Counted from the stretch's first letter, positions 10,031-32,279 are shown. The stretch is 64,000 nt of DNA from Methanomicrobiales archaeon HGW-Methanomicrobiales-3 (GCA_002839605.1 PGYK01000003.1:1-64000); one strand, 5' to 3'. Notes: generated from the letters alone by a model not told the origin. Translations and numbers: made by a program.

Positions 10031-11731
10031 ATGGATGAGGGAAGTTATGCAAGCGGGACTTCGACATTTCCGCTGATGGGAATGACGATCGGCGAGATGG
10101 TCGACAAGATAGCAGAAAAATACCCGGATACTGATGCCGTGGTCTCCATGCACCAGAATATCCGGTGGACCTACCGCGAGTTCAACGAGCGGGTGAACGA
10201 GGTTGCCCGCGGGCTCATGGGTATGGGCGTTGCAAAAGGCGACCGCGTGGGAATCTGGGCAATGAACCACGCGGAATGGATCCTTGTCCAGTTCGCCACA
10301 TCGAAGATCGGGGCGATCATGGTCAACATCAACCCCGCGTACCGCACCTACGAGCTCGAGTACGTGCTCAAGCAGTCGGAGATTTCCACCCTCTTCATCC
10401 AGGGCCGGTTCAAGACCTCGGATTATATCGGGATGTTCTACGAGGCCTGCCCCGAGGCCTACGAGGCCAAACACGGCAAGATCTCAAGCGAGAAGTTCCC
10501 GTTTTTGAAAAATGTCATCTTTATCGGAAGCACGATCTACCAGGGCATGTTCACCTGGGAAGATCTCCAGAAACGGGCCACCGAGATCTCGCATGAGGAA
10601 CTGGTTGAACGCGGGGAGTTGCTCACGTTCGACGACCCCATCAACATCCAGTACACCAGCGGGACCACGGGTTTTCCCAAAGGCGTGGTCTTAACGCACC
10701 ACTCCATCCTCAACAACGGGTACATTATCGGGGAGGGCATGGGCTTTAGCGAGAAAGACCGGCTCTGCATTCCCGTGCCGTTCTACCACTGCTTTGGCAT
10801 GGTGCTTTCAAACCTTGCCTGCCTCACCCACGGATCAACCATGGTCATCCCCGCCCCGGCCTTTGATCCTGAAGAGGTGCTCAAAACCATCGAGAAGGAA
10901 CGCTGCACCGCTGTCCACGGTGTCCCCACGATGTTCATTGCAGAACTTGCCCACCCGAATTTTGGCAAATACAACTTAACCTCCCTCCGGACGGGCATCA
11001 TGGCCGGTTCCCCCTGCCCCATCGAGGTCATGAAGGAAGTTAACCAGAAGATGCACATGAGCGAGATCGTGATCGTGTACGGCCAGACCGAGACCGCACC
11101 CGGGGTCACCATGACAACCACGAAGGACCCGGTCGAACGCCGGGTGACAACGGTGGGCCGGGCATTCCCGCACACCGAGCTCAAGATCATCGACCCCGCG
11201 ACCGGCAGAATCGTCCCCCATGGCGGCGTGGGCGAGATCTGTGCCCGGGGCTACTGCGTCATGAAATGCTACTACAACAACCCGTCCGCCACGCAGGCAA
11301 CCCTTGACAAGGACCACTGGAACCATACCGGCGATCTCGGCACCATGGATGCGGAGGGGTACTTCAAGATTGTCGGCCGGTTAAAGGACATGGTCATCCG
11401 TGGCGGCGAGAACATCTATCCACGGGAGATCGAGGAGTTCCTCCATCACCACGAGAAGATTGCCGATGTGTACGTGGTCGGGGTTCCGGATGTCAAGTAT
11501 GGCGAAGAGCTCTGCGCCTGGGTGAAGATGAAAGAGGGCCAGACCCTTACCGAGCAGGAGATCAAGGACTACTGCCAGGGGAAGATCGCCCGGTTCAAGA
11601 TCCCGCGGTACGTGATGTTTGTAACAGAGTTCCCCATCACCATCTCCGGCAAGATCCAGAAGTTCAAGATGCGCGAGGAGTCCATCAAGTTCCTCGGTCT
11701 CGAGGATGCCTCGAAGATCCAGACCGCGTAA
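10031..11731 (+). CDS. AMP-forming acyl-CoA synthetase (fatty-acid/aryl acid-CoA ligase family)
   Basis: A 566-residue ANL-superfamily adenylating enzyme. The phosphate-binding loop [11 protein letters not shown] begins near residue 208, the YGQTE motif is near 350, the TGD motif near 433, the hinge [16 protein letters not shown] follows, and the catalytic lysine is in ISGKIQKFK near 541. All are intact. Expected reaction: carboxylic acid + ATP + CoA to acyl-CoA + AMP + PPi. The sequence type is that of medium/long-chain acyl-CoA synthetases, but the actual acid is not readable, and methanogens of this order lack beta-oxidation, so it may serve lipid recycling or acid activation. It is probably leaderless, controlled through the TATA box and the paired GGTGCACC sites. 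Confidence 0.93.
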
Positions 11732-11832
11732 CGCGGAACACAAAAGCCCCATCCTTTTTTTTGCGTTCTTTAGAAAACCCGCGATGCCTGCGGCCACAGG
11801 CACACACAACGGAAACTGGATCTCCATTTTCT

Positions 11833-12535
11833 ACTCTGTAGAAACAGGCATGAACCGATTAGGTCCACACCAGAACGATGAAAATATGCAGAAAAATAAC
11901 GTCCTCGCCCGCATCCTTGCACTCCTTATGGGGGCGACAAGGCCCCCAACGTCGCGCAATGGTCGGGCTGCGGATGCGATTGTGCCCAATATGGCGTGCA
12001 TGCAGGACACTCGGACAGAGGACCCCAGCGAATATTTTCATGGGAAACGGACATGAACCGCTCAGGTTCACACCCGAAGCATGAAAAACGCTGCATGCGG
12101 GATATCTTTTTAGCACTTCCCGATTCAGGACACCTCACAGGGAACGTTTGGAAGAAATATCCGGTCCGGAAAACCGGTAATAGAAGCCGCCGCGGGAGCG
12201 CCCCCGCGGGGGCGGCGGCAGGAATCGCAACCGGGGTATGGGGGTCTCAACCCCCATAATCTATTCTTCTGGAAATTGTGTTTTTATGGGAAATCCGCAG
12301 TCCGGATAATTGTTACCCCCCTTCTCGCCATCCCTGCCCCCAAGGGGGCTTATGGCGCATGCGATGCCTCCGCATTACCCGTACAGGACACTCGACAAAA
12401 ATTGCTTTCACAAAAACAGAAATTGAGGCCGCCGCGGGAGCGCCCCCGCGGGGGCGGCGGCAGTAATCCCCAAGGGGGTATGGGGGTCTCAACCCCCATA
12501 ATTTATTCTTCTGAAAATTGTGTTTTTCATATTTA
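11833..12535. repeat. intergenic cluster of dispersed repeats (B, E, B, A, A)
   Basis: No gene is supported between the ligase and 12664. Present are a B element (11833-11885), an E element in reverse (about 11900-11992, with AATGGTCGGGCTGCGGATG), a second B element (12046-12090), and two A elements (12183-12297 and 12424-12535), each with a CCGCCGCGGGAGCG hairpin, the ATGGGGGTCTCAACCCCCAT hairpin and a TTCTTCTG...TGTGTTTTT tail. A further partial E word (GCGCAAGGATACGGGCGAGG) is at 12558-12577 and a B element in reverse at 12600-12655. Confidence 0.7.
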
Positions 12536-19502: not shown

Positions 19503-20645
19503 ATGGCGAAACCCGAAAAAACTCCGGAACTGAAGCGGACATGCCCTGCCTGCAACAGCCCGGTCAGGACGGGTTTCAAATTCTGTGAATTCTGCGGGAC
19601 GAGAATACCGGAACTCTCAACCTGTACCCACTGCGGAACCCAGTTCATTACGCCCAGAAAATTCTGTGACCTGTGCGGAGCCAAAGTTGTCCTTGAGGTG
19701 CAACCACCGCCATATGAGGAAACAGACGACCTGCAACCTGCTGTTGATGTAGATACTGAGGATTCTGGGGCCTGTGATGAGGATTACGGTACTTATGATG
19801 AGGAAATTCCGGAGCAGGATGAGTTCCAGGAAGACTACCCGGAGGAATTCGCAGGCCAGGAGGAGGATGAGCCCCCCCTTGATAAAGCAGGCGGAATTGC
19901 AGAACCGGATACCGATGAACTGCTGGAAAAATTCGGGAAGGAGTACCGGGACGATGAGACGCTTGAAGCCCCCCGCAGGTTCGGTTTTTCGTTTTTTTCA
20001 CGAGCCGGCAGAGGATCGCAGGCTCCGGCTCCTGCACGATCACCCGTTCCATCTTCAGATGGTGTCGATGACGCGCTGTTCCTCGCAAAAAAGAAGGAAA
20101 GACCGGCCAATCCGCGGGTAAACCTGACCTTTGTTATCGGGGGCGTACTCGTGCTGGCGATCCTTATCGCGGCAGGGTATTTCATCGTTCTCCCGCTGCT
20201 CGCGGAACCCTCAGATCCCGGTGTCCACAGCAGTGTAACGGTTGCAGATATCACGGATCTTCCGGAGGCAACCGCGGTCACGAAAATCCCGTACGGTTCG
20301 TCGGGATCCGGATCCTCATCAGCCAATCCGCTCGTCCCCCGGCCAACCGAGACGATCCCTTCGGGACAGACGCTCTACTTCCACGTGGACAAAGATCCGG
20401 TTACCGCAAAGATAACCGTCATCTTTGCCGGAAGTGCCGGGGTGGGCAGCATCAGCAGCGCTGAGGTGAAGGTGACTCACCCGAACGGGGCGGTGGCTAC
20501 GGGGATCATCCTGCCCCTGAAAGGGGTGAGTGAGATCACCCTTGATGGATCGAAAGAGACCGACCGGCTGGAGATCATTGCAACGATGACCACCGGCGAG
20601 ACCTACCGGGTCCGGGACGAGCTCCTTCCGTTGTGGAAGCAGTAG
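19503..20645 (+). CDS. zinc-ribbon single-pass membrane protein (paralogue 1)
   Basis: A 380-residue protein. The N-terminus has two zinc ribbons (CPACNSPV...FCEFCGTR and CTHCGTQF...FCDLCGAK). A long acidic, low-complexity linker (about 65-155) comes next, then a basic patch and one membrane helix (about 203-228). The outer C-terminal domain (about 280-380) is beta-rich: LYFHVDKDPVTAKITVIFAG, VKVTHPNGAVATG, LDGSKETDRLEIIATM and GETYRVRDELLP. The same domain order and matching C-terminal phrases occur in the gene at 21374, so the two are paralogues. TTTTAATA lies 26 bp before the ATG. A regulatory or sensing role with the ribbons inside the cell is inference. Confidence 0.88.
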   Translation: MAKPEKTPELKRTCPACNSPVRTGFKFCEFCGTRIPELSTCTHCGTQFITPRKFCDLCGAKVVLEVQPPPYEETDDLQPAVDVDTEDSGACDEDYGTYDEEIPEQDEFQEDYPEEFAGQEEDEPPLDKAGGIAEPDTDELLEKFGKEYRDDETLEAPRRFGFSFFSRAGRGSQAPAPARSPVPSSDGVDDALFLAKKKERPANPRVNLTFVIGGVLVLAILIAAGYFIVLPLLAEPSDPGVHSSVTVADITDLPEATAVTKIPYGSSGSGSSSANPLVPRPTETIPSGQTLYFHVDKDPVTAKITVIFAGSAGVGSISSAEVKVTHPNGAVATGIILPLKGVSEITLDGSKETDRLEIIATMTTGETYRVRDELLPLWKQ

Positions 20646-20754
20646 CGTTACGGGAGGTGGTGCCCGATTTTTACCCGGGGGAAATTGTCCCTGAACGAAG
20701 GTTCGCCCCCGGACTTTGAAAACCGGATGAATCTGTGAATATGTCTGTCCTGGC

Positions 20755-21215
20755 CCGGCCATTGCGCGACGATGGTGGCAATACGACCACTCTCAAGCGT
20801 CCGCGCAATGGTCGGGCTGCGGGTGCGATAGTGCCCCTTATGATCTCCTTTCGGGATTTCATACGGGTATTTCCCCGGACTTTTTTTTAAAAAAAAACCG
20901 AATTGATACCGCCGCGGGAGCGCCCCCGCGGGGGCGGCGGGGTTCATCATTTCCGGGGGTATGGGGGTCTCAACCCCCATCATCTGTTCCAGAAGAAGCC
21001 ATTTTTTTAGGGGAAAACCTGCCAGAAATCGTAGATTGATCTGCGATGGAGCCACGGGCGCTCGGGGTCTCATCGACCCTCGCCCCGTGGAACAGGCCAT
21101 ATATGGGCGCCTGCATCTGAATGCTAGAACCGGGGGTTTTTAGGGCTTGTCCCCTTGGTGTGCCTTCCCCTAATGGGGAGAGGGGGGCACCCTCGCAATT
21201 CCACAAAAAGACCCT
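20755..21215. repeat. intergenic cluster of dispersed repeats (E, A, C, D)
   Basis: The 0.7-kb gap between the two paralogous zinc-ribbon genes has no gene. It holds an E element in reverse (20755-20845, with CGCAATGGTCGGGCTGCGGG), an A element (20908-21015), a C element (21033-21095, GCGCTCGGGGTCTCATCG) and a D element in reverse (about 21130-21215). Confidence 0.65.
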
Positions 21216-21373
21216 GTGGGAATGATTTCACCAGATCAGAATTCTTCAGCAGCGGATGCACCGGAATTCCCAAAAGCTATGGAGAACTCCCGGCCCCGCG
21301 ATCATCAAAGCAGTTTTTAACCCCGGAAACAAAAACCGCGGATTTTTATAACGGCACTGACTAAACGCGTGTC

Positions 21374-22354
21374 ATGGAGGATCCTTCCCTGCCGTCCGGC
21401 ATCCTGCGTACCTGTACCTCGTGCGGGAGCCCCCTCGGGACAGATCAGAAGTTCTGCGAGATCTGCGGCACGAAAGCAGAAGCGCTGCCCGTCTGCCGGA
21501 AGTGCGGTGCCCTCTTCATTGCCCCCGTCAAGTTCTGTGAGCTATGCGGTACTCCGGTCATACCGGATGGGAGTGATCAGGACCCTCTGGACAAAATAAC
21601 GGTTACGGAGTCAGATCCGTACGACCATGATGAACCGAAAACTCCGGAGCCGGAACCAATAGACGTTACGGAGCCAACACACCTGCAACCCGGGCCGGAA
21701 GAGACTGAACCCGTCCAGACACCCAAGGCGGAAAAACCCCCCGCCCGGCCTTCTGACAATGCACTCTTCCTGCCGGATGAGGAAATGCCCGGAGGATCGG
21801 AAAAACCCCCGGCGAAAAAAACCTTCCCGACCACAGCCCTCATTGCCGGTGCGATTGTTGTTGTACTCATCGTCATCGCCGCGATATTCTTCATCGGCCT
21901 GCCGGCACTGCAGGGAGGCACGTTATCTGCCGGGACAGCACCGTTAACGGTCAACACCCCCCTCCCCGACCAGACAACCCTCCCGGCCACCATGCCGACC
22001 ATGACACCGACTCCGGTCCCGACTGACACGGCTGATCCATCCCTCCCGCTCCCGACCCAGATCATCCCAAAAAACCAGGAGGTCTTTTTCCAGGTCCAGA
22101 AAGATCCGATCACTGCTGAGATCACGGTACTCTTTGCCGGCGGACCGGGGATCAACAGCATCAGCAGCGGGGACGTGAAAGTGACACGCGAAGACGGGGC
22201 AGTAGTGACTGGCAGCATCAGACCCTCAAAGGGTGATACGGAACTGACACTCTCCGGGTCGAAAGGTTCGGACCGCGTTGAGGTCATTGCAATGATGTAT
22301 AACGGCCAGACCTACCGGGTCTATGACGAAGTACTGTCCTATAAAGAGCGGTGA
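21374..22354 (+). CDS. zinc-ribbon single-pass membrane protein (paralogue 2)
   Basis: A 326-residue paralogue of the protein at 19503. It has two zinc ribbons (CTSCGSPL...FCEICGTK and CRKCGALF...FCELCGTP), an acidic proline-rich linker (about 70-150), one membrane helix (about 157-180), a threonine/proline-rich stretch, and the same C-terminal beta domain (VFFQVQKDPITAEITVLFAGG, VKVTREDGAVVTG, LSGSKGSDRVEVIAMMYNGQ). A TTTTATA box lies about 27 bp before the ATG. The shared outer domain and variable linkers suggest a conserved ligand- or partner-binding module on the cell surface. Confidence 0.88.
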   Translation: MEDPSLPSGILRTCTSCGSPLGTDQKFCEICGTKAEALPVCRKCGALFIAPVKFCELCGTPVIPDGSDQDPLDKITVTESDPYDHDEPKTPEPEPIDVTEPTHLQPGPEETEPVQTPKAEKPPARPSDNALFLPDEEMPGGSEKPPAKKTFPTTALIAGAIVVVLIVIAAIFFIGLPALQGGTLSAGTAPLTVNTPLPDQTTLPATMPTMTPTPVPTDTADPSLPLPTQIIPKNQEVFFQVQKDPITAEITVLFAGGPGINSISSGDVKVTREDGAVVTGSIRPSKGDTELTLSGSKGSDRVEVIAMMYNGQTYRVYDEVLSYKER

Positions 22355-22459
22355 ATGGTCGCCCTGTAACGGCAACGCAGCCATCCGGGAATAAAACCGG
22401 CAGCAGCCAGCGCAATATTGATAATGCTGTGTCATCTATCATTGGCCTGAGGAGTGAGA

Positions 22460-22936
22460 ATGAAATTCTGCGGTGAATGTGGTACGGAGAACCCGGACAC
22501 CAACAGTTTTTGTAAGAATTGCGGGAAGGGGCTGAGGAAACCTGCGGGCACAGTACCAGAGGCGTCCCCGGCAGCCGGGCCGGCAGCAGTACCGGCGCAG
22601 CAGCAGGTTCCTGAAGCAGCCCCGATGCAGCCGCGACCCGTTGAGGCTCCTGCCGTAACTCCGGATATTCCGGGGCCGGGGGCGGTGCCAAAACGGACCT
22701 GGCTTGGCATCATCAGTCTCATACCGGCAATCTTCTCATGGATCCTGTACCCGGTTCTCCTTGGCATTGTCGCTGTCGTATTCGGGATAGCAAGCATCGC
22801 CCTTGCACGCAGGCAGGGAACACGATTCCCGGTTGCCGGAGTTATTGCCATCATAATCGGGCTTCTTGCCATCATTGTCAACATCTTCTGGCTCGACATC
22901 TTCCCGCCGCCACAGGTTCTGCCGCCGATCCAGTGA
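22460..22936 (+). CDS. zinc-ribbon multi-helix membrane protein
   Basis: A 158-residue protein starting at the ATG at 22460, with GGAGTGAG five bases upstream. Residues 1-25 form one zinc ribbon (FCGECGTENPDTNSFCKNCGK), then a proline/alanine-rich linker (about 30-80), then two to three membrane helices (about 87-150) of the DUF4190-like kind with a conserved arginine-rich turn (ALARRQG). A close relative lies at 28292. It belongs to the local group of zinc-ribbon membrane proteins. A B-type repeat follows the stop codon. Confidence 0.82.
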   Translation: MKFCGECGTENPDTNSFCKNCGKGLRKPAGTVPEASPAAGPAAVPAQQQVPEAAPMQPRPVEAPAVTPDIPGPGAVPKRTWLGIISLIPAIFSWILYPVLLGIVAVVFGIASIALARRQGTRFPVAGVIAIIIGLLAIIVNIFWLDIFPPPQVLPPIQ

Positions 22937-22969
22937 CGGTACCGGGTCACCGGTACGATCCCTTTTTTG

Positions 22970-23560
22970 CTCTGGTAAAAAGAGCCTGAACCGACAGGGT
23001 TCACACCCAAACGATGAAAAACACTCCCTTTTTCCTAGGTGGGTGCTCCGGTTCAGGGACTCGATACGGCACGGGGGGATAAATTACCGGATATGATATG
23101 AACCCGAATTGAGGCCGCCGCGGGAGCGCCCCCGCGGGGGCGGCGGCAGGAATCGCAACCGGGGGCATGGGGGCATCAGCCCCCATAATCTGTTCTTCTG
23201 GAAATTGTGTTTTTCATGGGAAATCATTCCCACGGTGTCATTTTGTGGAATTGTGAGGGTGCCCCTCCCCTCTCCCCATTAGGTGGAGGCAGCCTGCGGG
23301 GGCAAGCCCCCAAAACCCCCGGTTCCATCATTTTGGTTTCAAGTGCCCATTTACCTCCTGCTCCACAAAGGCAAGGGTCGATGAGAGCCCGAGCGCCCGT
23401 GGCCCCATCGCAGATCAATCTATAATTTCTGGCAGGTTTTCACCAGAGCAGAGAAATAAAAACCGGTAATTGAAGCCGCCGCACAGGCGCCCTCCGGGGC
23501 GGCGGTAACCCCCTATCATGGGGGTATGAGGGCAGTCAGCCCCCTGCATCGCTTCAGAGG
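22970..23560. repeat. intergenic cluster of dispersed repeats (B, A, D, C, A)
   Basis: Between convergent genes lie a B element (22970-23025) just behind the stop of the zinc-ribbon gene, an A element (23112-23223), a D element (23243-23330), a C element in reverse (23360-23425) and an A element (23472-23560). No coding potential is supported. Confidence 0.7.
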
Positions 23561-23578
23561 ATCTCACCAGATCCAGAA

Positions 23579-24784
23579 TTACCCTTCCTTTCCTGCCGGG
23601 ATCATTCCCAGATATGGGGAGAGGAACAACGCTGCCGCACCGGCCATGAGGAGAACCGTGCAGACAAAGAGCAGCCCCGAACTCAATACCGCGATGAGAT
23701 CGATTCTAGTGACGGCGCCGATGATCAGTCCCGCCAGCAGCCCGGCCCAGAGGTAAACAAATGGCAGCAGGCAGGAAAGAGCCGGGATTTGCCACTTCTT
23801 TTTCCCTGCCACCCACAAGGCAGAGAGCATGACAGGAAGGATATAGACAAGGCCGACCAGCGTCCCGCCGAATATGATGAAAACAACCGTTGCAACCCCG
23901 GGGCTGAAACTCAGTAGCGAATACACCCCCTGCGATAACAGGACAATGCCAAGAAGCGGCACAAGTACGAGACGCATAACCGGTTTCACCGAAGGATTCT
24001 CGTCAATCGTCCGGGCAACAAACGGGCTGAACGAGTAATAGATTGCGTTCAGGGCCGTGACGTACCTGGAGCCGAGGTAGTCCTGTCTGATGGTATCGTC
24101 CCGGAAGTCCCGCACGAGCTGGACCTCGCTTGCCATGGGAGAGCCAAACGTTGCCGTGACAATCAGGCAGTCGCTGAATCCCTCATCCCTTGCCGCTGCC
24201 TGTGCTTCTGCTGCCATCTCTGCTTCGCGCACCTCCGCAGCACCCTTTCTGTCACCGACAACATCATACACTTCTGCCCCCTCATGGAAGATTTCGGCCT
24301 GCTGCTCGTATTTGCTGTCGGACGTCATCTCCATTGCTTTATTGTAATTCCTTTCCGCCTCAGTGCACGCATCTTTTGTCTTCTCATAAAGGGATCTGGC
24401 ATAGGGATCTGCGGCATAGAACCCGGACGCTACGCCGAACGTGGATTTCTGTTCCAGCGATGCTGCCAGGAACGTGGAGACTGAGCCGGAGAGCCGGCCT
24501 TCTGCCTGCTCCTTTGCAATGTATGCCTCTGCCCGCTCATCATGCATCCGGCTGTATTCAGTACACTGGCGTTTCCAGTAATTTCCCTCATCGACAAAAT
24601 CCTCCGCGGTGTTCAGGAATACCGGGCGTTGCTGGCCCAGTTTCTTATCAATCATGGCGATGCCCTCTGAAAACGGTATCAGGAAGTCATCCGCGGTCAC
24701 GTCGCTTTCGGCATGTACCGGGGGAATACTAATTACCAGTATGAGAAGCACGGCCAGAAGTGGAAGATGCACACGCTGCCCCAT
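23579..24784 (-). CDS. secreted helical protein with CFI-box and multi-helix C-terminus (paralogue 1)
   Basis: A 401-residue protein. A signal peptide (about 1-26) is followed by a helical, TPR-like region (about 30-200) rich in Tyr, Glu and Ala with RNYNKAMEMTSDSKYEQQAEIF. The CFI-box region follows: CLIVTATFGSPMASEVQL, then VRDFRDDTI and YYSFSPFVAR (about 205-265). The rest has four membrane helices. The leader GTAAGCTGACTCCAAAGGG before the ATG closely matches that of the next gene. Family knowledge: CFI-box domains are named C-terminal conserved modules of unknown role. It is 50% or more alike by eye to the neighbour at 24974. Confidence 0.85.
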   Translation of the reverse strand: MGQRVHLPLLAVLLILVISIPPVHAESDVTADDFLIPFSEGIAMIDKKLGQQRPVFLNTAEDFVDEGNYWKRQCTEYSRMHDERAEAYIAKEQAEGRLSGSVSTFLAASLEQKSTFGVASGFYAADPYARSLYEKTKDACTEAERNYNKAMEMTSDSKYEQQAEIFHEGAEVYDVVGDRKGAAEVREAEMAAEAQAAARDEGFSDCLIVTATFGSPMASEVQLVRDFRDDTIRQDYLGSRYVTALNAIYYSFSPFVARTIDENPSVKPVMRLVLVPLLGIVLLSQGVYSLLSFSPGVATVVFIIFGGTLVGLVYILPVMLSALWVAGKKKWQIPALSCLLPFVYLWAGLLAGLIIGAVTRIDLIAVLSSGLLFVCTVLLMAGAAALFLSPYLGMIPAGKEG

Positions 24785-24973
24785 ACATGCCCTTTGGAGT
24801 CAGCTTACAAAAAGCATGCGCCCCGGCTTTTCCGCTCACGACCCGAAACAGCGAGTATCAGGGACCGGATTCGTGCAGGCAGGAAAGGGTTCGGGGGCAG
24901 TTGAACGGACGCGTTATGTACAAAAAAAGAGCCGGGTTCATTCACGATGCTCCTGCCACAAAGAAAAAAAGGT

Positions 24974-26179
24974 TCACTCATCCTGTCCTTTTGGCGAGAA
25001 TCCCAGGTATCCGGCGAGCTGCAGGGCCATTGCTCCGGCAATGAGGATTGCAGTACAGAAAAAGAGAAGGCCACTGCTGAGTGCGGCGACCAGATCGATT
25101 CTGAACATTACCCCTATCGCAAGAACAGGAAGCAGCGAGGTCCAGAGAAGGACAAACGGCAAAAAGACCCGTCGTGCAGAGACCCGCCACTGCCCCTTCC
25201 GCACAGCGATCCAGAGGGCGGCAAGCACAAGGGGCATGAGATAGACCAGCCCGACCAGCGCACCACCGGCAACAATGAAGACAACCGTTGCAATCTCCGG
25301 GCTGAAAGCGAGCAGCGAATAGATCACCTGCGAGATGAGCACGATCCCGATGAGCGGGGCAAGTACGAGGCGCATCACCGGCTTTGCGGACGGGTTCTCA
25401 TCAATCGCCCGGGCAACGGACGGGCTGAACGAGTAATATACCGCATTCAATGCTGTTACATAGCGCGAACCAAGCCAGGTCTGTTGCATGGTATCATCGC
25501 GGAAACTGCGAACCAGCTGGACCTCACCGGCCATTGGGGACCCGAACGTCGCCGTGACAATCAGGCAGTCGCTGAAGCCCTCGTCCTTTGCTTCTGCACG
25601 GGCCATAGCAGCCGATTCCGCCTCACGTACCTCACTGGCTCCATCCGCATCTCCGATAATGTCATATAATTCCGCCGATTCGCGGAAGATCCGTGCGTGC
25701 TGCTGGTAGTCATCGGGGCGTGTCAGTTCGAATGCCTTGTTATATTTTATTTCCGCCTTGCTGCAGGAATATTTCATAGAGGACCAGTCAATACGTGCCA
25801 TTGGATTCTTTTCGTAAAAATCATTCATCATCGGCGTTTCCTGGAGTGCAACACGGGTTTCAGCATTGACATTAAGCATCATGTCCCAATCGCTGCTGCC
25901 GACGTGCCCGACGTACGGGAGTTCGTTGTTTCCCATTTCTCCCTTTATCTGGAGTATATAGGCACGAAACTTTGCATTATAACTCCTGCTGTTTTCTTCA
26001 CATCGTTCTTTGTCCTTTTCTGCTTCCCGGATATAATCACTGGCATCCTTCTGGTAACCGAGTTCCGCACCGCCCAGTACATCGAGTAACTGGTCCTGAA
26101 CATCCGCATGAGCCGGTGCGACTGCAAAACCGAGAAGAAGAAGTACCGCGACAGCAGCAGCAAGCAGCCTGTTCCTCAT
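24974..26179 (-). CDS. secreted helical protein with CFI-box and multi-helix C-terminus (paralogue 2)
   Basis: A 401-residue paralogue of the preceding protein, of identical length. Signal peptide (1-24), helical region with AEIKYNKAFELTRPDDYQQHARIFRE-like repeats, then CLIVTATFGSPMAGEVQLV, RSFRDDTM and YYSFSPSVAR, then four membrane helices. The upstream sequence GTAAGCTTAATCCAAAGGG before the ATG is nearly the same as in the other paralogues, so promoter or translation leader was copied with the gene. The N-terminal half differs most between copies, as expected for a ligand-binding part. Confidence 0.85.
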   Translation of the reverse strand: MRNRLLAAAVAVLLLLGFAVAPAHADVQDQLLDVLGGAELGYQKDASDYIREAEKDKERCEENSRSYNAKFRAYILQIKGEMGNNELPYVGHVGSSDWDMMLNVNAETRVALQETPMMNDFYEKNPMARIDWSSMKYSCSKAEIKYNKAFELTRPDDYQQHARIFRESAELYDIIGDADGASEVREAESAAMARAEAKDEGFSDCLIVTATFGSPMAGEVQLVRSFRDDTMQQTWLGSRYVTALNAVYYSFSPSVARAIDENPSAKPVMRLVLAPLIGIVLISQVIYSLLAFSPEIATVVFIVAGGALVGLVYLMPLVLAALWIAVRKGQWRVSARRVFLPFVLLWTSLLPVLAIGVMFRIDLVAALSSGLLFFCTAILIAGAMALQLAGYLGFSPKGQDE

Positions 26180-26249
26180 ACATGCCCCTTTGGATTAAGC
26201 TTACAAAAAAGTAATGCCGGGTCCCGGGATTTGGGACCCGGAGCAGCTC

Positions 26250-26921
26250 TTATTGCCGCCTACGGTGGAGGATCACTACCGCGCTCATGACCCCGAGGAG
26301 TGGCAGCCACCACGGCAGGGGAAGGTACATATCAGATTCCGCGTGTGCCAGAGCAACCGCCGCTGCGTCCCGGACCTGTCCGGCTTCCTCTGTCTGGCCG
26401 AGCGCATCATAGATTCCCGCGCCCTGGTTGAAGATCTCGGCCTGCTGACGGTAGTCGTCCTCCGGAGTCTTATCGAGCGCTGCATTGTAATTCTGCTCTG
26501 CCTCATTGCACGCCGCAAGCATGGAGTCCCAGTACGTCTGTGCCAGCGGATCTTTCTGGTGGAAACCCGTACTCATGACATATCCCCGCTGCTGGAGCGT
26601 CGGGTTCTTCAGGTTGTTCATCAGCGCTGCCGTATCCGCGGCGGGGTTCTGCGCGAGCGCCTCCTGCCGGACATATGCACGCAACTGTTCGTCATACAGA
26701 TTGCTGTAGTATTCACATTTTTCCTTGTGGGCATTACCGGCATCGAGATAGTCCTGTGCTGTCCACTGGTAGGCGGGTTTCGGATCGGTCAGGTCAATGC
26801 CGAAAAAGTCAAGCGAAGCTTCCCGGGCAAGGTCCTCCGCACGTTCAGCATGGACCGGAACCACGGCAAGTACGATGAGAATAAGCGCGGAAAGAGCGGG
26901 TATCAGCAGGTCAATCCTCAT
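26250..26921 (-). CDS. secreted helical protein with single C-terminal anchor (paralogue 3)
   Basis: A 223-residue protein that shares the signal peptide and helical domain with its neighbours (AQDYLDAGNAHKEKCEYYSN; QNYNAALDKTPEDDYRQQAE) but lacks the CFI-box. It ends with one hydrophobic helix (LPWWLPLLGVMSAVVIL) and HRRRQ, the layout of a membrane anchor with a positive tail. Its ATG has the same AAAGGGGCATGT leader as the two CFI-box paralogues downstream. It probably displays the helical domain outside the cell. Confidence 0.8.
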   Translation of the reverse strand: MRIDLLIPALSALILIVLAVVPVHAERAEDLAREASLDFFGIDLTDPKPAYQWTAQDYLDAGNAHKEKCEYYSNLYDEQLRAYVRQEALAQNPAADTAALMNNLKNPTLQQRGYVMSTGFHQKDPLAQTYWDSMLAACNEAEQNYNAALDKTPEDDYRQQAEIFNQGAGIYDALGQTEEAGQVRDAAAVALAHAESDMYLPLPWWLPLLGVMSAVVILHRRRQ

Positions 26922-27086
26922 ACATGCCCCTTTACGCCGAAATAGAATAATTTAACCGTTCGATATTCACACCATGACCCTGCCGGCAGGCAGCCGCATA
27001 CCGGACAGATCCTGTGGTGCAGAAGAAGAAACCGCCCGGGCTGTTCCCAATCAGATGCTCTGGTGAAATCATTCCCAGGGAGTCAT

Positions 27087-27172
27087 TTTGTGGAATTGCG
27101 AGGGTGCCCCTCCCCTCTCCCCATTAGGTGGAGGCAGCCTGCGGGGGCAAGCCCCCAAAACCCCCGGTTCTA
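27087..27172 (+). repeat. dispersed repeat, family D
   Basis: This copy (TTGTGGAATTGCGAGGGTG onwards to CCCCCAAAACCCCCGGTTC) matches 23243-23330 almost base for base and can form GGGGGCAAGCCCCC-type hairpins. It abuts the end of the 27181 gene. Confidence 0.7.
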
Positions 27173-27180
27173 TCATTTTT

Positions 27181-27891
27181 TTATTTTTTCCTGCGGCCCA
27201 GGAGGAACACCCCGCCGATGATCCCGAAGACCGCAATCCATGCCGGCAGGGGGAGAAGAGAGGAGAACAGGTTCTTTTTCACTTCCATCGCAGCACTTGC
27301 AGCAGCAGCCTTTTCGCATTCGATAAACCCTTCTTCGTCTCCGCTCAGAAGATACGAATCGGCGGCATCGGACCAGATCGATGCCTGGCGCCGGTAATCA
27401 TCCGGTTTCACAACATTGAGTGCCATGTTGTATTTTTCCCGGGCACACGTACAGTACCGGTACTTATCATCATAATAACCGGCCATCTCCGGGTCCGCGA
27501 TCCCGTATCCGGGTGCCGGGTTTGAAAGATAGGCCAGTTTCGAGGAATCTCCAAGAATTTCATCGCGGCTCCAGCCCTCGCCAAACGGATTGCCCGCCGC
27601 GGCCGACATTTCCAGCTGGCGATCGACCATTTTTTCTGAATACTCGCGGCATTTTTCTGCACATTCTCTTCCGGCCTCCTGCCATTGTTCGGCACTCCTG
27701 ACGTAGACCGGAACAGGATCGTCAAAAGCCGCCGCGCCATTGACAATGATAGTGGTTAAGAATTCCCCGGCATCCACCTGTACATCGGATGACACATCGC
27801 TGCCGGTCTTTCCGTCTGCGCTGACCGGGACTGTCAGAAAGACGGCTGCCGACATGAGCAGCAGGATCAGCACATATCTGGAGAACAGCAT
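27181..27891 (-). CDS. secreted helical protein with single C-terminal anchor (paralogue 4)
   Basis: A 236-residue protein with a signal peptide (about 1-26), a helical domain related to the neighbours (VRSAEQWQEAGRECAEKCREY; KYNMALNVVKPDDYRRQASIW; ADSYLLSGDEEGFIECEKAA) and a C-terminal anchor (LLPLPAWIAVFGIIGGVFLLGRRKK region). It lacks the CFI-box. It is the most diverged member of the group. An insertion element-like sequence lies just upstream of its start. Confidence 0.8.
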   Translation of the reverse strand: MLFSRYVLILLLMSAAVFLTVPVSADGKTGSDVSSDVQVDAGEFLTTIIVNGAAAFDDPVPVYVRSAEQWQEAGRECAEKCREYSEKMVDRQLEMSAAAGNPFGEGWSRDEILGDSSKLAYLSNPAPGYGIADPEMAGYYDDKYRYCTCAREKYNMALNVVKPDDYRRQASIWSDAADSYLLSGDEEGFIECEKAAAASAAMEVKKNLFSSLLPLPAWIAVFGIIGGVFLLGRRKK

Positions 27892-27935
27892 TTACTGACA
27901 ATTTCAATGAGGGGTAATTAATCTTGTGTTTTTGC

Positions 27936-28215
27936 AGGACTTACGCGGTTTGCTTCCGTTCAAGCGCGAGACAATAGTAAGAACTCACTTAAAAAAACCC
28001 GCATGAAGTCAAAGACTTCGCACCCATGCAATGAAAATTTTGTATTGCATACTCAATTTCCGGTTGTATTGAGAATCGTCGATAAACATCAAAATTTTCG
28101 CTCGTGCATTCCGGGGGGTTCAAACTCGCTCGATCTCCATTTCGGGTCTGTCTAAACCTTGAATTGGCGCTATTAGATCTCAGATCTTTTTGTCGAAACC
28201 AACTGCGTAAGTCCT
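27936..28215. mobile_element. MITE-like element, about 280 bp
   Basis: The stretch starts with AGGACTTACGCGGTTTGCTT and ends with the inverse of AGGACTTACGCAGTTGGTTT: 17 of 20 bases agree, 11 of them in a row at the tip. The inside is AT-rich, unlike its surroundings, and encodes nothing. Termini of the type GGACTTACGCA occur in insertion sequences, so this looks like a non-autonomous derivative. No clear target duplication is visible and no transposase is in the window. Confidence 0.65.
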
Positions 28216-28291
28216 ATAACGATAAAAACTGACAAAAACACAATATTTTTCAACTGTCCAACTGAACATTCAGGTCAGATGAGGCGATATC

Positions 28292-28771
28292 ATGTTCTGT
28301 GGTGAATGCGGCACACAAAACCCGGATACCAACCAGTTCTGCAAGAACTGTGGCAAACCCCTCCGCAAAGCTCAGCAAACTCCCGCAACTCAACCGGTAA
28401 CACCACCCGAAACCCCGCATGTCATGCCTCCCCCGGCACAACCTGCCTCTGTTCCACCCCTGGCAACCGGAGTTCAGCCACCAGTTCTCGTTGCGGGATC
28501 TGCGAACCCCGTTGAAAAACCGCCACGGAACACGAAGATGCTTGTTCTAGGCATCGTCGGGGTCCTGCTTGGCATCGGTTCATTCTTACGGTACCCATAC
28601 CTTCTGGCGATTCTCGCCATAATCATTGGTGGCTTTGTCATAGCAAAACCCGAGAACAGGAAAGGTGCGGTTTTGATTGTTGCCTGCATTGCAATCCTGA
28701 TAGGGATTGCCTCCTTCCTGTTTGATATGTTTTATCTTGTTATTCTGCCACCGGTTCCCCCGGAAATCTGA
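28292..28771 (+). CDS. zinc-ribbon multi-helix membrane protein (paralogue)
   Basis: A 159-residue relative of the protein at 22460: one zinc ribbon at the start (MFCGECGTQNPDTNQFCKNCGK), a proline-rich linker (about 27-80) and a membrane part with three helices (about 85-155) ending in VILPPVPPEI, much like the other copy's end (IFPPPQVLPPIQ). GAGGCGAT stands 4 bases before the ATG. It lies between the MITE-like element and a convergent CFI-box gene. Confidence 0.82.
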   Translation: MFCGECGTQNPDTNQFCKNCGKPLRKAQQTPATQPVTPPETPHVMPPPAQPASVPPLATGVQPPVLVAGSANPVEKPPRNTKMLVLGIVGVLLGIGSFLRYPYLLAILAIIIGGFVIAKPENRKGAVLIVACIAILIGIASFLFDMFYLVILPPVPPEI

Positions 28772-28804
28772 ATTGTCCGGTGGAAAAAAATTCTTTTTTG
28801 ATAT

Positions 28805-29827
28805 TTATGCCGAAACGGCATCTTTCCGGCCAACATACCGGGACAGTGACAAAAGAAGGGCACCGGTCGTGAGGATGATGGTAGCAACCACAAAGAGCCC
28901 TGAGGCTACCGTTGTCAGCAGGTCCAGGGAGAATGCCGACCCCGTCACGATAAGAAGGAGAAGAACGCCCCATACCCCTGCTACCGGCAGGATACGCCGG
29001 ATATTCCCGCCATCCCAGCCGCGAAGACGGGCAATCCACACACCTGCCAATGCGGTCGGGAAGACATAGATAAGGCCAAACAGGGTACTTCCGACAATGA
29101 TGGCAGCGATGGTTGCCAGCTCGGGATTGAAACTCAGGAAAGAATACATGACCTGGGCAATGAGAACGATCTGGAGAATCGGGGTTATCAGTACCCGCAT
29201 GACCGGTTTCGTGACCGGGTGTTCATTGATATACGTTGAGACCTGGGGACTGAACGAGTAATACCATGCATTGAATCCTGGCATGAAACGGGATCCCGTA
29301 TAACTCTTCACAATCGAATCGTCACGGAAGCTCCTGACCAGCTGCACCTCGCTTGCCAGGGGAGACCCGAATGTGGCAGTAACAATGAGACAACCATAAT
29401 CCTGGATTGAGCCTTTCTCTTGTCCTTTGGCCTCCCACTTGGCTGCGTTTGTGTATGCCTCCTGTTTCTCGGCCTCGTGACCTCCCCATTTCGCATACGT
29501 ATCGCCTTTCAACTTCTCTATGGAAGCAACCGCTAATTCGGCAGAACCGTCATCTCTTTCAGAGGATGTCATCGCACTCATTTGAGCTGCATTGAAATTT
29601 GTTATCGCATCCTCGTAGTTACCATTTTCCAACGCTCTCTTACCTTCAATCTTGAAATCATAATAGCCCCACTGCGTCTTGGGCTTCTCCTGGAGGAGAT
29701 TCGGGAGGCCCACGCCAATAATGGGCGCTGACAGGGAAGCATCCATCGAGGCAGCCTGGAGGGGGGGCATTACAATGAAGAGCAGGCAGATCAGCAGAAG
29801 AATGTGTCCTGATTTACGGTGTGTCAT
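28805..29827 (-). CDS. secreted protein with CFI-box and multi-helix C-terminus (paralogue 5)
   Basis: A 340-residue protein with a signal peptide (about 1-25), a shorter helical domain with a TPR-like unit (ALENGNYEDAITNFNAAQMSA), then the CFI-box: CLIVTATFGSPLASEVQLV, RSFRDDSI and YYSFSPQVST, then four membrane helices. The N-terminal half differs from those of the 401-residue paralogues, whereas the CFI-box and membrane part are well conserved, so these C-terminal modules have been recombined with different outer domains. Convergent with the zinc-ribbon gene at 28292. Confidence 0.82.
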   Translation of the reverse strand: MTHRKSGHILLLICLLFIVMPPLQAASMDASLSAPIIGVGLPNLLQEKPKTQWGYYDFKIEGKRALENGNYEDAITNFNAAQMSAMTSSERDDGSAELAVASIEKLKGDTYAKWGGHEAEKQEAYTNAAKWEAKGQEKGSIQDYGCLIVTATFGSPLASEVQLVRSFRDDSIVKSYTGSRFMPGFNAWYYSFSPQVSTYINEHPVTKPVMRVLITPILQIVLIAQVMYSFLSFNPELATIAAIIVGSTLFGLIYVFPTALAGVWIARLRGWDGGNIRRILPVAGVWGVLLLLIVTGSAFSLDLLTTVASGLFVVATIILTTGALLLSLSRYVGRKDAVSA

Positions 29828-30029
29828 CCATCATACATTTTTTGGGAGGAAGTTAAATCTTTTGAATCCAGCCAGTGATTTTTTTTGGATTCGATCTACT
29901 CCTGCAAGCCCCGTGACGATTTTTCCTGTCCTGCCGCAGGCATCCATGTGCGTTCGTTCTCATAAAACAGCAACAGCATTTTGGAAGATTCAAACAAATT
30001 AACTCATGGCAAGAAAAGAGAAGTAATGA

Positions 30030-32279
30030 ATGGCCGATGATACAAAAATTCCCAAGGATACAATTCTGCGGGATACATCAACAACAGGGACATCGGGGGT
30101 TTTCGGAGGAGCAGGAAGGGAGATCATCGGGGAACCAGTGCATCCGGAAAACAGCATGGAATGGTGGTTTGTCCAGGGCTCATTTGAGGGAAAAACCATT
30201 GGGCACCGGCATTTCATGGTAAGCATCTTCCGGTTTGATCTCCAAAAGAAAGGAGCGGCCCCGTATGACAATTATTATGCACTTATCTCGGTGCTTGACC
30301 CGGCCACTGGGGAAAATTCCATTACAAGCAGGGCGGAATCCAAAATTATCAACCGGCTCTCTGACCATGCCATGGAACTGAAATCCACGGATCTTCACCA
30401 GGCACTCCTTGAGACGTATATCGAAGAACTCAGGAACTATGGACCCCCGGCCCCTATAACAACAGAAGAAGAAAGACCGGAAATCGAACAAAATCCGTTC
30501 TCATTTTTTTGGAAAGACCTCACATTTCGCATCAACGATACTGGTATTTATCTCTCCTTCGATTTGGCTGGCAGCGGCGGGAGGTGCCGGTTCCATCTCA
30601 AACCACAATCCTCCCGCTACACGCTTGAAAACATCGGAACAGGGCCCGACCGGACCATGACCTATGCCACCTGGCCCCGGCATATCATCACCGGGCAGAT
30701 GGACGGGGAACCCGTGACCGGAACCGCATGGTTCGATCACCAGTGGGGCAACACAGGATGGTTCCTTTCAAGTCCCAGGGGAGGTGACCTCTCCGGCTGG
30801 GACTGGGCCGGAATCAATGGCGCTGACGGTTCTGATTGGATCTTCTTAACCTTCCGCAACCCAAAAAACGGGGACATCATCAGCCGTTTCGCCGCACGGT
30901 TCAAGGAGGGCGAAGAGGTTCGGACATTTTCAGATTTCTCCATACAGCCGGTGCGTTTCTGGACCAGTGAGAAGACGCATATCAGATATCCAATAGCACA
31001 GCAGATCGAAATTGAGGAGATTTCCGCACGGTTTGTCCTGGAGCCGGTCACTGACGACCAGGAGATACCGGTCCTTGGCCCCATGCGGGCAATCTGGGAA
31101 GGTGCAACGGTTGTCACAGGGTCAGTTGGAAACGATCCGTTTTACGGCACCGCCCGGCTTGAGCTTCAGGGATATGGTTATATCTTTGATTTCGGGCAGT
31201 TCATCGAAAACCACGTAAACCGGATCCAGAAATGTATTGAATCGTTCCTCCCGGAAAACCCCGGGGATGAAGATTTCATGAGGCTTGTTGGCCCCTCATT
31301 CGGGATTCAGGACAGTGCGGCATTAACAGATACGATCATTCGCCCGGCCTGGGACCTGCTCTCCCGTAAGAAAAAAAACTGGCGGCCGGTATTTGGCCTG
31401 CTTCTCCTTGAATCGCTCGGGATCAATTCCGAAAAATACGAGATGCTGCTCTCGGTCGTGCCAGAATTAACCCACACGGGAACGCTCATTATTGACGATA
31501 TCGAGGATGGAGCCGTTGTCCGCCGGGGTGACACCTGCATTCATCACCGGTATGGGACAGATGTGGCAATCAATGCAGCAAATACCCTGTATTTCCTCCC
31601 CTCGGTGCTGTTCAGCACACATCCCGATCTCTCGGATTCCCAGCGCCTCGAGTTTTTCCGGATTACTCACGATTCCTTTATCAAAGGGCATTTTGGCCAG
31701 GCTCAGGATATTTACTGGACGAAAAACATGAATGAGGAGAATCTTGCCATGTGGATGGATGACAGCATGGCAGAACAGATCCTCCGGATGTATGAGTTCA
31801 AGACCGCTTCGGCAGCAATAGCTACGGCTGAAGCGGGATGTATCCTTGCCGGAACCACTCCCGAAGTGCGTGAGGCATGTGTTGCCTATGCCCGGGCCCT
31901 TGGTATTGCGTTCCAGATAATCGATGATATCCAGAGTTTTTTACCGGATCAGGAGCCCGGAGATCAGCCGGGGGATGACCTGGCTGCGGGGAAACTTACG
32001 TACGTGATCATCAGGGCGCTTGACCTGCTGAACGATCCTGACCGCTCCCGGCTCCAGGAGATCCTCTGCTCAAAACGCTTACGGCAGGATCCTCATACCC
32101 TGGACGAGGGAATTGCCCTGGTCCGGAAATCCGGAACCCTCTCAGCATGCCGGGCAGAGGCGCACATGATGACAGCGAGGGCATGGGTGGAGTTCTCCCA
32201 AATTGTACCCCCCTCAGAGCCAAAGGTCATGCTCCGGTTATTCACAAAGAACCTCCTGGACCCTGATGGTTCTCCATAA
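30030..32279 (+). CDS. fusion of CrtC/AttH lipocalin-like domain and polyprenyl diphosphate synthase
   Basis: A 749-residue protein. Residues about 30-400 resemble the CrtC/AttH (carotenoid 1,2-hydratase-like, double lipocalin) family: ENSMEWWFVQGSFEG, GHRHFMVSIFRFD, WFDHQWGNTGWF and SGWDWAGINGADG. Residues about 440-740 are an all-trans polyprenyl diphosphate synthase, with the first aspartate-rich motif DDIED (489-493), the RRG that follows, the GHFGQAQDI segment and the second aspartate motif IIDDIQ (632-635). Both halves keep their signature residues. Polyprenyl synthases join isopentenyl units; CrtC-type enzymes hydrate isoprenoid double bonds, so a made-and-modified isoprenoid is a plausible product, by inference. 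The gene stands alone, with no other isoprenoid gene next to it. Confidence 0.88.
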   Translation: MADDTKIPKDTILRDTSTTGTSGVFGGAGREIIGEPVHPENSMEWWFVQGSFEGKTIGHRHFMVSIFRFDLQKKGAAPYDNYYALISVLDPATGENSITSRAESKIINRLSDHAMELKSTDLHQALLETYIEELRNYGPPAPITTEEERPEIEQNPFSFFWKDLTFRINDTGIYLSFDLAGSGGRCRFHLKPQSSRYTLENIGTGPDRTMTYATWPRHIITGQMDGEPVTGTAWFDHQWGNTGWFLSSPRGGDLSGWDWAGINGADGSDWIFLTFRNPKNGDIISRFAARFKEGEEVRTFSDFSIQPVRFWTSEKTHIRYPIAQQIEIEEISARFVLEPVTDDQEIPVLGPMRAIWEGATVVTGSVGNDPFYGTARLELQGYGYIFDFGQFIENHVNRIQKCIESFLPENPGDEDFMRLVGPSFGIQDSAALTDTIIRPAWDLLSRKKKNWRPVFGLLLLESLGINSEKYEMLLSVVPELTHTGTLIIDDIEDGAVVRRGDTCIHHRYGTDVAINAANTLYFLPSVLFSTHPDLSDSQRLEFFRITHDSFIKGHFGQAQDIYWTKNMNEENLAMWMDDSMAEQILRMYEFKTASAAIATAEAGCILAGTTPEVREACVAYARALGIAFQIIDDIQSFLPDQEPGDQPGDDLAAGKLTYVIIRALDLLNDPDRSRLQEILCSKRLRQDPHTLDEGIALVRKSGTLSACRAEAHMMTARAWVEFSQIVPPSEPKVMLRLFTKNLLDPDGSP

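Follow-up and report, generated by a model that had tools for sequence, protein, structure and literature searches.

Convergent CFI-box and zinc-ribbon genes in Methanoregula and near relatives point to an undescribed cell-surface unit

Surface anchoring in archaea can be tied by gene order to a lipid-synthesis enzyme, as is the case for archaeosortase A with PssA/PssD in Haloferax and Methanosarcina, where the surface protein is lipidated (PMC7157517). The VARTIG system of Thermococcales is Ig-based and operonic, with a hypervariable C-terminus (PMC8416519). The component families of the locus described here are already known by name without function: for the CFI-box, a literature search found no papers and no assigned role, and a search for the name DUF4190 found no paper.

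The locus lies in a window (the whole stretch of 64,000 nucleotides that was analysed, lying in contig C11 of a 2.59-Mb genome) from Methanomicrobiales archaeon HGW-Methanomicrobiales-3. Among named genomes, the closest relatives of these CFI-box proteins come from the Methanoregula MAGs UBA11803, fen_80, PtaB.Bin085 and fen_47, and the genome is taken to be a Methanoregula. A preliminary description had placed nine ORFs at 19503-29827; all are present there, and a codon-usage caller picks all nine (with a truncated start for Z4). The ORFs had been read as two interleaved families, with the cluster ending at 29827. Three groups are found instead, namely Z1/Z2, Z3/Z4, and the TPR-like C1-C3 with A1/A2, and the unit extends further, to the LPPS gene at 30030-32279. 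CFI-box genomes comprise the genome itself, four of 35 congeners (G019, G002, G013 and G023) and two genomes of the same family from a phylum sample (G104 and G368). Based on gene order, co-occurrence, domain make-up and charge pattern, all directly seen, we give a probability of about 0.5 to the reading that these genes form an accessory cell-envelope module, carried in a variable island of Methanoregula and near relatives, in which an outer TPR protein and an inner zinc-ribbon partner would meet in the membrane.

Protein groups of the locus

The claim of four zinc-ribbon proteins holds, as Z1-Z4 pass Pfam cut-offs (PF13240/PF12773): PF13240 (Zn_Ribbon_1) scores 28.3-32.1 bits in all four, above the gathering cut-off of 25 bits, and Z1 also passes for PF12773 (DZR, 33.8 bits). 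They do not form one family, since the zinc ribbon is the sole part common to Z1/Z2 and Z3/Z4; the Z1-Z2 match reaches E=5e-54 and the Z3-Z4 match E=1e-27, while cross-matches mostly span about 20 residues. Z1 (380 aa; 19503-20645, plus strand) consists of a double zinc ribbon, an acidic linker, one TM and an outer C-terminal domain. Its relative Z2 (326 aa; 21374-22354, plus strand) is 34% identical to it and 73% identical to an orthologue in G013. The double zinc ribbon of both is cytoplasmic. Relatives of the Z1/Z2 outer domain, many of them small ORFs, occur in 60 of the 60 relatives searched (the one such ORF examined, L240, starts as a lipoprotein), and Z1/Z2 stand without CFI-box or TPR genes in G029 and G020; on these two grounds, the idea that Z1/Z2 are tied to the CFI genes was dropped.

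Z3 (158-160 aa; 22454-22936, plus strand) and Z4 (28292-28771, plus strand; PF13240 at 32.1 bits) share the zinc-ribbon pattern CGECGTxNPDTNxFCKNCG, followed by a proline-rich linker and a DUF4190-like TM part, which has three helices in Z4. DUF4190 scores of 19.4-23.6 bits do not reach the gathering cut-off of 35 bits (in Z3, E 9e-4, below cut-off). The structure model of Z4 was poor (pLDDT 58), too weak to support a fold search. In G104, the CFI motif itself has decayed, and in the partner proteins, as in Z3, a soluble N-terminal domain and a Pro-rich linker lead into the DUF4190 pattern. The N-terminal domain of these partners (L109:9219-9929 and 11399-12139), with the pattern YQDNTG..WWAIS..DGSWLKWTG, replaces the zinc ribbon, the TM part being kept; the two TM parts are 79% identical and their CFI partners 37% identical.

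The third group is encoded on the minus strand. C1 (23579-24784; NF041770 at 63.5 bits) has a signal peptide, a TPR-like outer domain, a CFI-box (23954-24169) and hydrophobic helices, and C2 (24974-26179; CFI-box 25349-25567; 64.5 bits) has the same build and is 54% identical. A1 (26250-26921) joins a signal peptide and a C1-type TPR-like domain to a single C-terminal anchor (LPLPWW..TM..RRR), a build repeated in A2 (27181-27891; LPLPAW..TM..RRKK). C3 (28805-29827; CFI-box 29177-29392; 62.5 bits) has a signal peptide, a short TPR-like outer domain, a CFI-box and hydrophobic helices. The CFI-box assignment is borne out, C1, C2 and C3 scoring 62-65 bits against a cut-off of 40, and so is the description of secreted and anchored proteins, signal peptides and C-terminal anchors being directly visible. 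A helical domain common to all five secreted proteins had also been proposed. It is shared by C1, C2, A1 and A2 (E 1e-34 to 1e-9; for example, 1.7e-34 for A1 against C1 and 1.4e-19 for A2 against A1); C3 drops out, with a BLAST E of 0.08 and matches at TPR superfamily level only, and its outer domain is at best a distant relative.

Judged from profile matches and a structure model, the domain common to C1, C2, A1 and A2 appears TPR-like. The CFI-family profile matches TPR chains in the PDB (E 5e-5), and for residues 40-198 of the AF2 model of C2 (pLDDT 82) the best rows are mostly TPR chains, the top one at Z 12.7 and rmsd 1.6 over 78 residues, on a scale where helical folds can reach Z values up to 13 by chance. 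This match list spans the TPR part alone. Foldseek gave no match in the PDB at E<=0.001, and none of the Pfam TPR models scored above cut-off in the window proteins; a protein of G022 (C103) reaches 27.0 for TPR_2, where the cut-off is 27.

The scan of the genome itself returned C1, C2 and C3 as its only CFI-box genes. A genome scan with C2 alone as query recovered no relatives, unlike an alignment query. The CFI-box is widespread in archaea, one genome scan placing it at 453 tblastn-confirmed sites. One genome of the phylum sample (G139) matches the CFI-box 14 times, and the proteins concerned vary widely in length. Residues C205, R224, R227 and Y248-P253 (the YYSFSP block) are invariant in 23 CFI-box sequences, and the Cys, the two Arg and YYSFSP are common to the CFI-box proteins of Thaumarchaeota and Bathyarchaeota. 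The proposal that varied N-terminal domains are combined with a conserved C-terminal membrane region holds: outer domains are 27-42% identical and CFI/TM parts 45-73%, and outside the order the CFI module bears unrelated outer domains (e.g., Ig-like, metallophosphatase). This divergence is in keeping with a display module whose outer parts can be exchanged; relaxed constraint would look alike, and the suggestion that the system actively diversifies its outer domains gains no support here.

Four hydrophobic helices are predicted after the CFI-box, as the preliminary description had it; the charge pattern is compatible with an outside N-domain only if helix 1 is not membrane-spanning. Averaged over 23 CFI proteins, K/R number 0.04 in the loop from helix 1 to helix 2, 4.3 in the loop after hydrophobic helix 2, and 2.4 in the C-tail. 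The N-domain is placed outside by the signal peptides and by the type I layout of A1 and A2, and this placement, combined with the positive-inside pattern, suggests that helix 1 is interfacial and non-crossing. This would place the CFI-box at the outer face, beside this Pro-containing helix.

The LPLPxW motif of A1/A2 was considered as a sorting signal and set aside: it has no support from curated models (no sorting-signal model, e.g., PGF-CTERM, matched A1 or A2 in Pfam or NCBIfam at E 0.1), and the anchors of relatives differ. An exosortase/archaeosortase homologue is present in the genome.

Pairing within a variable island

The interval between NAPRT and CheW is a variable island. In the window, it holds the cassettes {Z1,Z2}, {Z3,C1,C2,A1,A2} and {Z4,C3,LPPS}; G029 has {Z1,Z2} alone, G019 {Z4,C3,LPPS} alone, and G013 {Z1,Z2,Z3,C,A,A}. 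CheW directly follows NAPRT in G035, G016, G022 and G008, where the island is empty, and in other congeners NAPRT is followed by phosphate-transport genes. A dispersed intergenic repeat with 67 genome matches occurs in the window at 20895-20989, 21010-21238, 23085-23460 (plus strand, between Z3 and C1) and 27065-27179. Its two modules, A (which has a GC-rich hairpin) and B (about 230 bp), are found alone or joined, in either relative orientation; an Rfam scan of the region, this repeat included, gave no match. Two copies that are 97% identical (23220-23334 and 27065-27179) flank C1-C2-A1 and could promote rearrangement.

Such a setting lends itself to a possible alternative, less probable than the envelope-module reading, in which the island is a hot spot that collects and duplicates surface-protein genes, and C and Z genes are neighbours by shared history, with no joint function. 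The variability of the interval, empty in several congeners, the independent gain and loss of Z1/Z2, and the repeats around the C1-C2-A1 block all speak for it. Nevertheless, the arrangement of the C-Z pairs is constant. The 11 CFI-box genes detected in Methanomicrobiales (seven genomes) all belong to ten arrays, and every array meets a Z3/Z4-type gene tail to tail; Z3 is the partner of the C1/C2/A1/A2 array, Z4 and C3 are separated by 33 bp, and the G013 orthologue of Z3 (72% identical) stands in the same convergent order with the CFI gene there. The gaps are 32-141 bp in eight cases, the exceptions being 325 bp (G368) and 642 bp (Z3/C1, where the gap holds the dispersed repeat). A single orientation in ten of ten pairs, across two or three genera and with outer identity down to 30%, counts against a hot spot, as do similar pairs without a CFI-box at other chromosomal sites (in G022, and on C198 of G013).

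A survey of gene neighbourhoods in relatives, set beforehand as a check, found the two families adjacent at the same site in G019, G002, G013, G023 and G104 (in G368 they are on a short contig), and also adjacent at other sites, on C50 and C103 of G022 and C198 of G013. G022 lacks the CFI-box; its two Z3/Z4 relatives, weaker at 115 and 108 bits, each neighbour a TPR-like gene with a single anchor, convergently on C50 and divergently on C103. On C198 of G013, one TPR-like single-anchor gene is joined by one relative of Z3/Z4 and one of Z2. Of the 14 better Z3/Z4 matches, 13 adjoin a secreted-type gene (rough background, about 20% of genes). The zinc-ribbon partner thus accompanies an exported protein rather than the CFI-box itself. 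Comparing the identity matrices of the C-terminal module and the Z TM part gave a mirror-tree r of 0.46 (Mantel p=0.001), which falls to 0.03 when the two Z partners of the window are exchanged. The mirrored trees show that the pairs travel together; linked co-inheritance alone could mirror trees without interaction. Given the fixed tail-to-tail order and the pair-wise co-inheritance, the link exceeds local duplication.

Among 75 comparison loci of other archaea (Bathyarchaeota, Thaumarchaeota and others), no zinc-ribbon membrane gene was adjacent to the CFI-box, an approximate count as the gene caller missed some CFI genes. Set beside the CFI-box genes detected in Methanomicrobiales, all in paired arrays, this makes the pairing look like an invention of this order. 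As CFI-box proteins elsewhere manage without such a neighbour, the partner is not part of CFI function as such.

The partner could also be of a more general kind. It is unlikely, though partly overlapping with the envelope-module reading, that Z3/Z4-type proteins are small membrane regulators or chaperones for the export or insertion of any adjoining secreted protein, rather than partners dedicated to CFI-box proteins. This would suit the 13 of 14 better matches beside a secreted-type gene, and the Z3/Z4 relatives on C96 of G002 and C57 of G019, which follow a Cys-rich secreted gene and not a TPR gene. Against a general role, the closest relatives (above 200 bits) accompany CFI-box genes in all cases but one (C136 of G002), and the pair trees match. 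Full-length matches above 200 bits come from only the five CFI-box genomes of the genus, own included, in a search whose profile had been built from paired genes. Cys-rich secreted proteins without a Pfam match were seen directly upstream of Z3/Z4 relatives in two genomes (L111:4957-5511 and L112:6517-7092).

Least probable is a role in conflict or immunity, in which variable outer domains would work with an inner partner much as in polymorphic toxin-type loci. The variable island, the faster-changing outer domains, the stable two-gene unit and the precedent of a hypervariable membrane-associated module of another kind in Thermococcales (VARTIG, PMC8416519) speak for it. Against it, Pfam and NCBIfam searches of the nine proteins turned up no domain of the toxin, nuclease or Ig kind, and Z is not recognisable as an immunity protein.

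A lipid enzyme beside C3

The LPPS gene (30030-32279, plus strand) encodes 749 aa, in which CrtC/Lipocalin_9 domains are fused to a polyprenyl diphosphate synthase (PF00348 1.7e-46, PF17186 1.1e-18, PF07143 2.8e-10). C3 and LPPS are arranged divergently wherever both occur, in five genomes (the window, G019, G002, G023 and G104), at a spacing of about 170-500 bp. In the window, the divergent promoter region covers 29828-30029, with elements at 29853-29865 (minus strand) and 29990-30002 (plus strand); an alignment of four genomes shows conserved BRE/TATA-like elements at both ends. The pattern TCAAANRNWTTWA, derived from these sites, has only two exact matches in the 64-kb window, both being the promoter-like elements.

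The fusion is found in three of 35 congeners, all three with a C3-type gene. More broadly, the CrtC/lipocalin-polyprenyl synthase fusion is rare, with a full-length relative in four of 60 relatives. In other families (G051, G392 and G395), LPPS relatives stand beside a PEP-synthase-like gene with no CFI-box genes nearby, so the C3-LPPS link is lineage-specific. On account of these genomes and of G013 (66% complete), which gave no LPPS match, LPPS was rejected as an obligatory part.

The proposed unit and known systems

The C-Z pairing is well supported, and from it we infer a mechanism that includes physical interaction, ligand binding, co-expression and a lipid role. At the core of the envelope module would be a two-gene unit, tail to tail, of an exported TPR-like protein and a small Z3/Z4-type membrane protein. 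The former would be displayed outside the cell and may bind a protein or cell-wall ligand. It would be held either by a single TM anchor or by the CFI-box module, in which three membrane-crossing helices come after a CFI-box and interfacial helix at the outer face. The Z3/Z4-type zinc ribbon would be cytoplasmic, and its protein, meeting the TPR protein in the membrane, could serve from the inner side as an adaptor, coupling or stabilising it. For the C3/Z4 cassette, co-expression of LPPS is probable, as is a role of this enzyme in making or modifying a polyprenyl lipid for use at the same place in the membrane. A far more speculative version, which we consider quite improbable, would make the CFI-box and the non-crossing helix an outer-leaflet site for lipid binding or attachment (through the invariant Cys), with the lipid coming from LPPS, the zinc-ribbon protein as gate-keeper, and a route separate from archaeosortase.

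The conserved pair and the LPPS tie lift the finding above a local curiosity. Tying the CFI-box to one small inner-membrane partner and a lipid enzyme offers a handle on the job of this domain, and names three genes for joint study, of the C, Z and LPPS types, whose order points to an undescribed cell-surface unit.

Compared with described families, C1-C3 resemble CFI_box_CTERM (NF041770) in curated score and invariant residues; what sets them apart is their TPR-like outer domain and the zinc-ribbon gene as partner. In Z3 and its G104 counterparts, the pattern that follows a soluble domain and linker is like that of DUF4190 proteins (PF13828), with scores below cut-off. In the archaeosortase system as in C3/LPPS, gene order connects surface anchoring with an enzyme of lipid synthesis; however, C3 is polytopic and is not a PGF-CTERM protein, and the enzyme is a polyprenyl synthase fusion. 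The parallel shows that gene order beside lipid enzymes can be functional in archaea, and implies no membership for C3/LPPS. VARTIG shares with this island the variable setting, the membrane and secreted proteins, and the changing outer parts, whereas the present system is TPR-based, is arranged in convergent pairs and conserves its C-terminal membrane part. As far as the literature searched goes, the convergent C-Z pair and its tie to LPPS are new.
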